NCBI RefSeq assembly: GCF_900100155.1
Contig: NZ_FMTP01000002.1
Location: 62,001-126,000, forward strand
DNA length: 64,000 bases
DNA from: Ancylobacter rudongensis
GTDB taxonomy: Bacteria; Pseudomonadota; Alphaproteobacteria; Rhizobiales; Xanthobacteraceae
Reading direction: 5' to 3'
The notes under the pieces are model-generated. The model made no database searches. It had not been told where the DNA came from and worked only from the letters and a program-made list of their open reading frames with translations. Positions 18,652 to 33,067 of this stretch are shown here, piece by piece. How positions within the stretch are numbered: position 1 is the first letter of the stretch; each line of letters begins with the position of its first letter. A program made the position numbers and the translations under genes.

Positions 18652-19686
18652 TCACGCGGCGGCAACGGCCTTGATTTCGACTTGCGAGATCGTCTTGAGG
18701 ACCTGGGAAGCGATCTTGTAGGGGTCGCCCTGGGAATTCGGGCGGCGATCCTCAAGGTAGCCCTTGTAGTCGTTGCGGATGAAGGAGTGCGGCACGCGGA
18801 TGGAGGCGCCACGATCCGCCACGCCGTAGGAGAACTTGTTCCACGGCGCCGTCTCGTGCTTGCCGGTCAGGCGCAGATGGTTGTCCGGACCATAGACCGC
18901 GATGTGATCGTCAAGGTTCTTCTCGAAGGCGGCCATCAGCGCCTCGAAATACTCCTTGCCACCCACTTCGCGCAGATACTTGGTGGAGAAGTTGCAGTGC
19001 ATGCCCGAGCCGTTCCAGTCGGTATCGCCGAGCGGCTTGCAGTGGAACTCGATGTCCACGCCATACTTTTCGGTCAGACGGAGCAGCAGGTAGCGGGCCA
19101 TCCACACTTCGTCAGCAGCGCGTTTGGAGCCCTTGCCGAAGATCTGGAATTCCCACTGGCCCTTGGCGACTTCCGCGTTGATGCCTTCATGGTTGATGCC
19201 GGCTTCGAGGCAGAGCTCGAGATGCTCTTCCACGATCTCGCGGGCCACGTCGCCGACATTCTTGTAGCCGACGCCGGTGTAATAGGGGCCCTGCGGCGCG
19301 GGATAGCCATGCTCGGGGAAGCCGAGCGGACGGCCGTCCTTGTAGAAGAAGTATTCCTGCTCGAAGCCGAACCAGGCGCCTTCGTCGTCAAGAATGGTGG
19401 CGCGGGCATTGGTGGCATGCGGGGTGACGCCGTCGGGCATCATCACTTCGCACATCACGAGCACGCCGTTCTTGCGGGCCGGATCGGGATACAGCGCGAC
19501 GGGCTTCAGCACGCAGTCGGAGCTGCGGCCCTCGGCCTGCTCCGTGGACGAACCGTCGAAGCCCCACAGGGGGAGCTCTTCCAGCGAGGGGAAGTGGTCG
19601 AATTCCTTGATCTGGGTCTTGCCGCGCAGGCTCGGGGTCGGCTTGTAACCGTCGAGCCAGATGTACTCGAGTTTGTACTTCGTCAT
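18652..19686 (-). CDS. glnII: Glutamine synthetase type II (eukaryote-like)
   Basis: Makes glutamine from glutamate, ammonia and ATP. The 344-residue length, the opening [14 protein letters not shown] and the [11 protein letters not shown] motif are those of GSII, which is shorter than GSI (GlnA, about 470 residues), is not adenylylated and is found in rhizobia and relatives. The start ATG at 19686 excludes an upstream Arg-rich extension of the frame. It is divergent from gstI, whose product in Rhizobium leguminosarum inhibits glnII expression. A sigma-54-type promoter lies at 19774-19789, so transcription is expected to depend on RpoN and NtrC under nitrogen limitation. Confidence 0.97.
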
Positions 19687-20129
19687 TGCGTGTCTCTCAT
19701 CACTTAAGACCGGGTGCCGAACAGCCCTGGTCGTTGTGCCGGCCGTGCGACCGCCAACGGCTAGCCTCACACAAGCATATGCTGTGCCAAATGGTCGGCG
19801 CCGGGCTCGAAGGCGCCCCGTCGGCGGGAGGCGACGGCGACGGAGACGTCCGGTCCACCGGCGGAGAACAGGTTGATTCGCGTTGATCCTGCGGCGTTTG
19901 CGGCCCCCCAGCACCTGCCGAGCGCCTGCTGCGCTGCAACAGCCGATGCAACCCTCGGGGGGCGAACGCCGTTACCCCCGCAGGACTTGCAGAAGCGTGT
20001 GGCGGTGCACATATTCTATGCTCATTGTGATTGCAAAATGTGCATCTTGCGCAAACGCCATGCAAAAGATGTTATAGGTAAACCAAGGGCTGGCGCAGGA
20101 ACGCGCAGCCCAGAAAGGAGAAACGTGCC
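19687..20129. promoter_or_regulatory. glnII/gstI divergent control region
   Basis: 443 bases without a gene. Besides the sigma-54 promoter at 19774-19789 it holds an AT-richer part at about 20005-20085 with TGCA-N5-TGCA at 20032-20044 and several GCAC/TGCA half-sites reminiscent of NtrC sites. A TTATAG near 20072-20077 could be the -10 of gstI. NtrC binding here is inferred from the known rhizobial arrangement. Confidence 0.55.
19774..19789 (-). promoter_or_regulatory. Sigma-54 (RpoN) promoter of glnII
   Basis: On the minus strand TGGCAC-N5-ATGCT matches the -24/-12 consensus TGGCAC-N5-TTGCW at all but one position, with the invariant GG and GC at correct spacing. It ends 88 bases before the glnII start. 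GSII genes of rhizobia are known NtrC/RpoN targets. Confidence 0.75.
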
Positions 20130-20315
20130 ATGAACGCTCACACCCAGCGCGAGAGCGCGCAGATCGTCCCCTTCCCCGTCGGGGGCCGTGCCGGCCTTGC
20201 CGCGCGTCGTCCGGATCTGCTGTCTTCCGAGGCCCTCAAGGTATCGCCCCGCGTCATGATCGGGAGCTGGTACCATGAAGAGGCCATCAAGGAAGATGGC
20301 GGGCGCACCAACTGA
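20130..20315 (+). CDS. gstI: Glutamine synthetase translation inhibitor, DUF2735 family
   Basis: A 61-residue protein with the conserved N-terminal part QRESAQIVPFPVGGR of DUF2735. In Rhizobium leguminosarum the small gene gstI, divergent from glnII, makes a protein that blocks GSII synthesis under nitrogen excess. The same position, orientation and size here support the name. A clear ribosome site AAGGAG precedes the ATG at 20130. A terminator follows at 20382-20415. The similarity assignment is from memory of the family and not from a search. Confidence 0.82.
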   Translation: MNAHTQRESAQIVPFPVGGRAGLAARRPDLLSSEALKVSPRVMIGSWYHEEAIKEDGGRTN

Positions 20316-20451: not shown

Positions 20452-21378
20452 CTAGCCGAAGATCGACCAGCCCATGCGCTGGGTCAGCCTTTCCAGGGCA
20501 ATGCGGCCGAGATGCGAATTGCCGCTGGCGTCCAGTCCCGGCGACCACACGGCGATCGAAGCCTTGCCTGGCGCCACTGCCAGAATGCCGCCCCCCACCC
20601 CGCTCTTGCCCGGCAAGCCGACGCGATAGGCGAACTCGCCCGAGCCGTCATAATGGCCGCAGGTCAGCATGATGGCGTTGATGCGCCGCGCCCGTTCCGG
20701 CGACACCACGCTGAAGCCGGTGGCCGGGTTGCGCCCATTATGGGCGAGGAAGCGACCCGCCATGGCGAGCTGGCGGCAGCTCATGGCGATGGCGCAATGG
20801 TGGAAATACACGCCGAGCGTGAAGTCGACCGGGTTTTCCAGCACGTTGAACGACTTCATGTAGTTCGCCAGCGCCCGGTTGCGAAAACCGGTGCGCTGCT
20901 CGGACGCCGCCACCGCCTCGTCAATGCCGATCGCCGGGTCCTCGGCGAGGAACTGCAGGAAGCGCAGGATCTCGCCCAGCGTGTCGCGCGGCTGGTGGCC
21001 GGAGAGAATGACGTCGGTGACGGCAATGGCGCCGGCATTGATGAAGGGGTTGCGCGGAATCCCGTGCTCGTTCTCCAGCTGAACGATGGAATTGAACGGG
21101 CTGCCGGAAGGCTCGCGCCCTACCCGGCGCCACAGCCGATCGCCGATCTTGCCCAGCGCCAGCGTCAGGGTGAAGACCTTGGAAATGCTCTGGATCGAGA
21201 ACGCCGCCTCGGCATCGCCACCCACCACCACACGGCCCTCGCGGTCAACCACCGCGATGCCGAAGGCATTGGCGTCGGCCCGCGCCAGTTCGGGAATGTA
21301 GCTGGCCACCTCGCCCCGGTCGGGACGGGCGCGCATCTCTTCGGCAATCTCGCGGACGACGGTCTCAAGCTCGGGCAC
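20452..21378 (-). CDS. glsA: Glutaminase A
   Basis: Hydrolyses glutamine to glutamate and ammonia in the cytosol. The 308-residue product is a serine-dependent beta-lactamase-fold glutaminase with SISK (Ser64, Lys67) as the SxxK pair, NPFINAGAI, and KSGVGGGI near residue 255. The start is GTG at 21378. It is convergent with gstI, placing a glutamine-consuming enzyme beside the glutamine-synthesising glnII/gstI pair; co-regulation is possible but no shared site is visible. Confidence 0.94.
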
Positions 21379-32155: not shown

Positions 32156-33067
32156 TCAGCCCGCCTTGCGCGTGGGCGCGCGCGAGGGCTTGCGCGCCGC
32201 CGGCTTCCTGGCGGCAGCCTTCTTGCCCGCAGCCTTCTTGTCAGTGCCCTTCTTGGCAGGCGCCTGCGCGGCCGATGCCTTCTTGTCGCCACCGCCTGCC
32301 AGACCCGCGCTCTCGCGCAGCGCGTCCATCAGGCTCACCACCTTGGCCGCGCTCTTCTTTGGCGGGGCAATCTTGCGGCCTTCCATCTTCGCCCGCACCA
32401 GTTCGGCGAGGGCGTCGTCATAGCGGTCGTCGAAGGCTTCGGGCTGAAAGCGCCCGGCCTTGGTCTCGATGATATGGCGGGCGAGATCGAGCATTTCCGG
32501 CTCCATCTTCACCTCGGCGATGTCCTCGAAGGCCTCCTGCGCCGAGCGCACCTCATAGTCATGGTTCAGCGTGGTGGCGATGAGGCCGTCATCATAGGCG
32601 CGGATCAGCAGGCTGCGCGGCCGGCGGAACAGGACGGCGCTCGCCACCGCCGCCACCTTCTGCCGGCGCAACCCTTCGCGGATGACGGCGAAGCTCGCCT
32701 GCGAACTCTCATCGGCCGGGCGCAGATAATAGGGACGATCGAAATAGAGATCGTCGACCTCGGCGCAGGGCAGAAAGCTGTCGATTGTCAGCGCCTTGTC
32801 GCCCTTTGGCGTCACCTCGGCGATCTCTTCCGGCTCCAGCACGATGAAGTCGCCGGAATCGACCTCAAAACCCTTAACCTGCTCGTCGCGCTCGACCACC
32901 TTGCCGGTTTCCGCATCGACGAAGCGCCGCTGCAGGCGGTTGCCGGTCTTGCGATTGACCATGTGCAGGCTGACGCGATCGCTGGCACTGACGGCGGTGT
33001 AGAGGCCGACGGCACAGACCAGCTCGCCCAGCCGGAGAAAGCCCTTCCATGTCGCGCGCGCCGCCAT
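32156..33067 (-). CDS. ku: Ku protein, non-homologous end joining (second copy)
   Basis: A 303-residue Ku homologue, beginning MAARATWKGFLRLGELVCAVGLY. The ring core covers about 6-250, and the last ~50 residues are an Ala/Lys-rich, histone-like tail (PAKKGTDKKAAGKKAAARK) that should bind DNA. First gene of ku-ligD-mgtC. An exact EcfG-type promoter at 33117-33141 lies 50 bases upstream, so the unit is probably part of the general stress response, as reported for ku/lig genes of Sinorhizobium meliloti under RpoE2. Confidence 0.93.
   Translation of the reverse strand: MAARATWKGFLRLGELVCAVGLYTAVSASDRVSLHMVNRKTGNRLQRRFVDAETGKVVERDEQVKGFEVDSGDFIVLEPEEIAEVTPKGDKALTIDSFLPCAEVDDLYFDRPYYLRPADESSQASFAVIREGLRRQKVAAVASAVLFRRPRSLLIRAYDDGLIATTLNHDYEVRSAQEAFEDIAEVKMEPEMLDLARHIIETKAGRFQPEAFDDRYDDALAELVRAKMEGRKIAPPKKSAAKVVSLMDALRESAGLAGGGDKKASAAQAPAKKGTDKKAAGKKAAARKPAARKPSRAPTRKAG

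Follow-up and report, generated by a model that had tools for sequence, protein, structure and literature searches.

The cyanobacterial proteins IF7 and IF17 are small glutamine synthetase (GS)-inactivating factors that are made under nitrogen plenty and bind the GS protein. GstI of rhizobia can be likened to them in size and logic, as a small protein that lowers GS in nitrogen plenty; IF7 and IF17 act by binding GS, whereas GstI is proposed to act on translation of glnII, which encodes GSII. The papers of Spinosa in 2000 and Napolitani in 2004 are said to have founded the study of this glnII/gstI circuit. In excerpts from two S. meliloti papers, GstI is termed an inhibitor of GSII translation; nitrogen limitation induces glnII (28-fold in one of the two) and lowers gstI three- to four-fold, a drop with a P value of 0.07 in one paper and seen in the other only with sufficient phosphate (PMC8829014; PMC3596328). 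The same excerpts describe a glnD mutant in which GSII is undetectable though gstI is still lowered, and other controls on GSII therefore exist (PMC8829014; PMC3596328).

The locus described here lies in an Ancylobacter genome, in a stretch of 64,000 nucleotides that was analysed as a whole (the window), and, judged by its sequence, is a further member of this circuit already known in rhizobia. It shares with R. leguminosarum and S. meliloti a divergent gene pair, a homologous GstI and a sigma-54 site before glnII. In R. leguminosarum (L074) NtrC-like sites lie near gstI, and in S. meliloti (L073) none reaches 8 of 10 positions; the window's own candidates match at 8 of 10, which is chance level for a single window. 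The window also differs from the rhizobial circuit: a NodA search of its own genome found no match, its GstI is only 37% identical to the R. leguminosarum protein, and a glutaminase gene lies beyond gstI.

A divergent glnII-gstI pair in the window

An earlier note on this DNA had proposed that a small DUF2735 gene opposite GSII, together with the sigma-54 promoter TGGCAC-N5-ATGCT, reproduces the rhizobial layout. The divergent pair, the GstI homologue and the sigma-54 signature are all there: gstI, at 20130-20315(+), diverges from glnII, at 18652-19686(-), with 443 bp between them. The span 19687-20315 that the note had marked takes in the intergenic region and gstI and leaves out the body of glnII. 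The features of the locus are as follows.

18652..19686, minus strand: glnII, glutamine synthetase II, 344 amino acids (Pfam Gln-synt_C and Gln-synt_N)
19687..19763, minus strand: glnII 5′ leader, about 77 nt, its start predicted from the -24/-12 element
19694..19698, minus strand: GAGAG, presumed glnII ribosome-binding site, 8-12 nt upstream of the ATG
19774..19789, minus strand: putative sigma-54 (-24/-12) promoter TGGCACAGCATATGCT, a sequence signature
20006..20022, strandless: NtrC-like 17-mer, 8 of 10 positions
20019..20035, strandless: NtrC-like 17-mer, 8 of 10 positions, overlapping the 20006..20022 site
20047..20076, plus strand: presumed gstI -35/-10, TTGCGC-N18-GTTATA, placed by eye and tentative
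20048..20064, strandless: NtrC-like 17-mer, 8 of 10 positions, within the presumed gstI promoter
20115..20120, plus strand: AAGGAG, presumed gstI ribosome-binding site, from the sequence
20130..20315, plus strand: gstI (DUF2735), 61 amino acids, PF10931 match
20452..21378, minus strand: glutaminase gene, convergent with gstI, a recurrent neighbour outside the core circuit

The window GlnII is 89% identical over 336 amino acids to the GlnII adjoining the annotated gstI of R. leguminosarum (89.0% to R. leguminosarum against 85.5% to S. meliloti 1021) and scores 393.7 bits against NF041605 (gln_syn_GlnII), under that model's cut-off of 500. Among the best 80 of 576 confirmed loci, the GlnII of Xanthobacteraceae bacterium 501b is 99% identical to it, which places the host near Ancylobacter and is in keeping with the Xanthobacteraceae member supposed in the earlier note. 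The note had also taken the host for a Calvin-cycle bacterium; a fructose-bisphosphatase gene with an opposite-strand LysR gene at 630-2820 is consistent with this and may mark where a cbb operon and its regulator begin. The genome encodes both NtrC (726.5 bits) and RpoN (437.1 bits), each above its cut-off. Elsewhere in the window, a Ku-domain gene at 32156-33067(-) suggests end-joining DNA repair.

The 61-residue protein matches PF10931, which Pfam lists as a domain of unknown function, at E 7.2e-15 and 55.7 bits (cut-off 25), and the alignment with the annotated R. leguminosarum gstI product (NZ_CP022567.1) extends over 51 amino acids, confirming the expected homology. Identity to the window GstI spans 23-97% among 44 homologues. 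The gene behaves as a protein gene under purifying selection, with pN/pS of 0.10-0.53 when the window is compared with six near relatives and a median of 0.24 across 168 related pairs. Residues A10, F15, P16, Y48 and H49 are invariant in all 113 aligned homologues, A52 is kept in 112 and W47 in 107, and the window protein carries both conserved motifs, A-x-I-x-x-F-P and W-Y-H-x-x-A; because the homologue profile was seeded with W-Y-H-type matches, this conservation arises partly by selection, while the Pfam searches are independent of it. Apart from these two motifs, GstI probably lacks structure over most of its length. AlphaFold gives a low-confidence model (pLDDT 67.5, pTM 0.23) that shows two short helices and an otherwise mostly unstructured chain, and a PDB profile search gave no significant match (best E 0.53). 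A tblastn search of plasmids with the window GstI gave no match at E 0.01 and missed the gstI genes that S. meliloti and R. leguminosarum plasmids do carry, so short and divergent a protein being a poor query for this kind of search.

Glutaminase catalyses the reaction opposite to that of GlnII. A glutaminase gene lies near gstI, within the flanks, at eight of the best 80 of 576 loci (L092, L094, L095, L117, L120, L130, L153 and L163), none of them a Rhizobium or Mesorhizobium record, and is absent at the window's nearest relative, L091. It also occurs near gstI at L008, L009, L012, L015 and L022, several families being involved, and downstream of glnII at L084 and L078, where gstI is not adjacent.

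glnII and gstI occur together in sampled relatives

Sampled relatives that have this GlnII carry the pair as a rule, and it is no peculiarity of the window's genome. Among 100 genomes sampled from the family, a rhizobial-type GlnII is present in 40, and the identical 40 have DUF2735 above the cut-off, adjacent and divergent in every case (in G561 glnII is in two pieces); a further genome, G563, has a sub-cut-off DUF2735 match with a stop codon and no GlnII. Of 199 genomes sampled from the order, 37 have GlnII, 36 have DUF2735 above the cut-off and 35 of the 37 have the two genes adjacent. The gstI of the 37th, G117, at 19.3 bits under the Pfam cut-off, was recovered with a 14-seed profile at 24.6 bits. 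At E 1e-60, the class sample (289 genomes) yields eight genomes with GSII. Three of them are the window's own, G117 and G442; the other five carry a distant GSII (50-54% identical) and gave no match to DUF2735 at E 0.01. Three genomes without GSII (G252, G395 and G401) have weak DUF2735 matches that fall under the cut-off. Across the phylum sample (349 genomes), 29 have GSII, that of G240 being distant; DUF2735 exceeds the cut-off in 26, all with GlnII, and rhizobial-type GlnII without a DUF2735 match is confined to G117 and G874. The four samples share genomes, and absences in them are soft, as only part of the first-look candidates was scored in many genomes.

When loci were gathered with a GlnII-only query, a divergent gstI was found at 78 of the 79 assessable among the best 80 of 576 confirmed loci; L134 ends with its contig and could not be assessed, at L125 gstI is truncated, and the one exception is L149. 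The pair is also adjacent in G442 (L067), which lies outside the order, and in a metagenome-assembled genome labelled Caulobacter (L115). These two cases may reflect either transfer of the pair as a unit or misbinned contigs.

Promoter and NtrC-like sites between the genes

The sigma-54 site of the window, TGGCAC-AGCAT-ATGCT at 19774-19789(-), has GG-N10-GC spacing, and its first base lies 103 nt upstream of the glnII ATG. Within the 64-kb window there is a single match to TGGCAYRN5TGCW, against 0.44 expected by shuffling, which alone is not significant. A strict -24/-12 site, however, precedes glnII in 113 of 123 distinct upstream regions, starting 82-141 nt upstream, whereas it turns up in 10 of 984 control stretches taken from within glnII and in none of 114 on the gstI strand; a looser sigma-54 score gave 82 of 984 controls. 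As a sequence signature, the promoter claimed in the earlier note is thus borne out. Seven gstI-linked glnII genes have no recognisable sigma-54 site (L044, L053, L057, L087, L120, L153 and L163), possibly a switch of transcriptional control at these loci.

The 123 rows were drawn from L031 upward, with L001-L030 (places that recur in later loci) and L171-L190 not included. Rows with identical upstream regions (L099, L116 and L127), a contig end (L134), repeats (L061 and L076), a partial sequence (L083) and the five distant GSII genes (L068-L072) were dropped. The locus rows are related, and counts of loci are not independent.

For NtrC we scored 17-mers against TGCAC-N7-GTGCA, which we take to be the consensus, counting those that matched at least 8 of 10 positions in the region between gstI and the sigma-54 site, with mononucleotide shuffles as the null; these counts, and the leader comparison below, used rows having both gstI and a sigma-54 site. 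Of the 107 loci, 67 have such a site (13.0 expected) and 28 have one that matches at 9 or more positions (1.06 expected). The sites cluster on the gstI side: 78 of 95 fall 40-125 nt before the gstI ATG, where 27% would be expected, and 60 of the 107 loci have one there against a shuffle mean of 3.0, in a zone that was chosen after seeing the site counts. At 40 of the 107, S. meliloti included, there is no NtrC-like site at 8 of 10. For the window by itself, the best-placed site is no more than chance would give (1 found, 1.07 expected); the 17-mer at 20048..20064 is identical in L091, L094, L095 and L117. A consensus scan for a sigma-70 site upstream of gstI found none. Excerpts from a further S. 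meliloti paper mention an NtrC motif recognisable at the glnII promoters of several rhizobia and an sRNA gene repressed by NtrC (PMC10746234).

The glnII leader and its ribosome-binding site

The window and L091 have the same leader sequence, with 80% identity in the middle of their spacers. Over 158 close, non-independent pairs, mean identity is 0.785 for the leader, 0.633 for the spacer middle and 0.746 for the 130 nt adjoining gstI; third codon positions of glnII, at 0.839, exceed the leader in the same pairs.

GAGAG lies within 20 nt of the ATG in 95 of 123 glnII genes versus 19 of 114 gstI genes, and an 8-wide motif at this place has a log-likelihood ratio of 225.9 versus 20.6-25.2 in five shuffled sets. 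Predicted pairing with the 16S end is -5.4 kcal/mol for glnII and -13.4 kcal/mol for gstI in the window, with means of -6.55 and -9.32 kcal/mol across loci and the stronger value on gstI in 84 of 114. The 71 long open reading frames of the window, many of which are not genes, average -5.96, a value than which the glnII mean is not weaker, and the glnII ribosome-binding site is weak relative to gstI only. GAGAG is absent from 23 of 107 gstI-linked leaders with a sigma-54 site, present in 6 of 9 leaders without an adjacent gstI and found in one of the five distant GSII leaders (L071). Since it occurs both with and without an adjacent gstI, it marks this glnII lineage and is no proof of GstI binding.

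Other candidate leader elements were considered. A folded, riboswitch-like leader is not supported, as the mean folding z over 68 non-redundant leaders is -0.24, with two below -2; the sole Rfam match up to E 5 is RF03063, on the other strand, at 18.5 bits against a threshold of 44.2. An upstream open reading frame overlapping the glnII start, which appeared conserved by eye among Ancylobacter relatives, does not keep its frame and start codon in other rows. The sequence AGCCG-TGGCGG at the predicted glnII transcript start scores above shuffles; its loose pattern matches only 18 of the 68 leaders.

gstI apart from glnII or absent

In one genus (g83), three genomes (G117, G174 and G807) have gstI at a distance from glnII, and two (G196 and G710) have it adjacent; a Methylobacterium bullatum copy groups with this genus in the GlnII tree. 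The three separated cases keep the sigma-54 site at glnII, and an NtrC-like site starts 123-124 nt before each gstI ATG, matching at 8, 7 and 7 of 10 positions, respectively, in upstream regions that are mutually related; the chance comparison above covers matches at 8 or more positions. This separation argues for action in trans, and the sites hint that NtrC control may be a property of gstI itself.

Nine of the 123 glnII genes have no adjacent gstI (L066, L075, L078-L082, L084 and L149), as does that of G874. The genome of L149 has two copies of glnII, the other of which, L156, is accompanied by gstI. Copies without an adjacent gstI that are borne on plasmids are L075 and L078-L083. While L078-L081 retain the sigma-54 site and GAGAG although gstI is not adjacent, L075, L082 and L149 have neither adjacent gstI, sigma-54 site nor GAGAG. 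On R. johnstonii plasmid pRlX5, glnII (L075) adjoins type III secretion genes, and the plasmid copies of Ensifer adhaerens, Shinella and Phyllobacterium (L079, L080 and L081) branch near the base of the lineage.

Relation to symbiosis

We searched 80 of the 84 known genomes with rhizobial-type GlnII for NodA, among them G874, which has no adjacent gstI. NodA exceeded the Pfam cut-off in 14; it was full length (>290 bits) in only 6 of the 80, the best of the other eight reaching 37.8 bits, in a test that would miss nodulation without Nod factors. The pair is therefore not a symbiosis trait. The GlnII tree separates 106 rhizobial-type rows from the five distant GSII (SH-aLRT 97), with inner branches that are weakly resolved and mix families; it was built by a quick method without bootstrap, and some of its branches are long.

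The earlier note had suggested that the translational inhibitor is older than symbiosis. The pair is likely of old origin and older than symbiosis, judging from its presence in non-nodulators of many families, most of the genomes being without NodA. As the tree is weakly resolved and mixes families, transfer of the pair between lineages is also possible.

Discussion

Most probably, the window carries the rhizobial glnII/gstI module, in which NtrC activates glnII and blocks gstI, and GstI lowers GSII translation. Under nitrogen shortage, NtrC would bind near the gstI promoter, from where it could activate the glnII sigma-54 promoter some 230-275 bp away and, at the same place, presumably block gstI transcription directly. 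When nitrogen is plentiful, glnII transcription would drop and gstI would be expressed, and the 61-residue GstI would lower translation of the leftover glnII mRNA, perhaps at GAGAG if the leader is its target. Such a double switch would remove residual GSII synthesis under nitrogen plenty, presumably also in the Ancylobacter host.

Other readings deserve consideration. GstI may be the nearly obligate partner of one GSII lineage throughout the order, much older than nodulation, and an unstructured peptide with two motifs that reads the glnII leader and its GAGAG in trans and brings its own NtrC control. We regard this version as tentative and less likely than not: the sites of genus g83 match at no more than 7-8 of 10 positions, and third codon positions of glnII surpass the leader in conservation. 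It is unlikely, though conceivable, that GstI acts on the GSII protein, nascent or finished, so that the apparent translational effect is protein loss. IF7 and IF17 are of the same size class and follow similar regulatory logic, DUF2735 above the cut-off accompanies only rhizobial-type GSII in our samples and is missing from the five distant-GSII genomes at E 0.01, and the low-confidence model, mostly unstructured apart from two short helices, would suit such a factor; however, the glnII leader is conserved beyond the spacer, its ribosome-binding site is unusual, and excerpts of the S. meliloti papers call GstI a translational inhibitor (PMC8829014; PMC3596328).

Alternatively, gstI could adjoin glnII through a shared regulatory region and have another function, or none, outside rhizobia. 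GstI function has been reported from rhizobia alone and the protein diverges strongly between lineages (23-97% identity), but purifying selection on gstI among Xanthobacteraceae relatives, the five residues invariant in 113 of 113 homologues (from a profile seeded with W-Y-H-type motifs) and the retention of an unlinked gstI by three genomes of genus g83 make this explanation quite improbable. Divergent neighbours also invite the idea of a gstI-side transcript that pairs with glnII mRNA as a cis-antisense RNA. As the predicted starts, near 19763 for glnII and beyond 20076 for gstI, are some 300 bp apart, the transcripts diverge and gstI is under protein-level selection, we consider such pairing highly implausible.

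Our search, outside which most subscription papers lay, found no earlier report of the family-level link between DUF2735 and glnII, of the site statistics or of the unlinked cases. Nearly every sampled genome with DUF2735 has it tied to glnII, which supports naming PF10931 GstI. The glnII leader with its GAGAG is a candidate target for the GstI peptide. Finally, a circuit that has been studied in legume symbionts would extend to free-living bacteria, in which it may be tested without plants.
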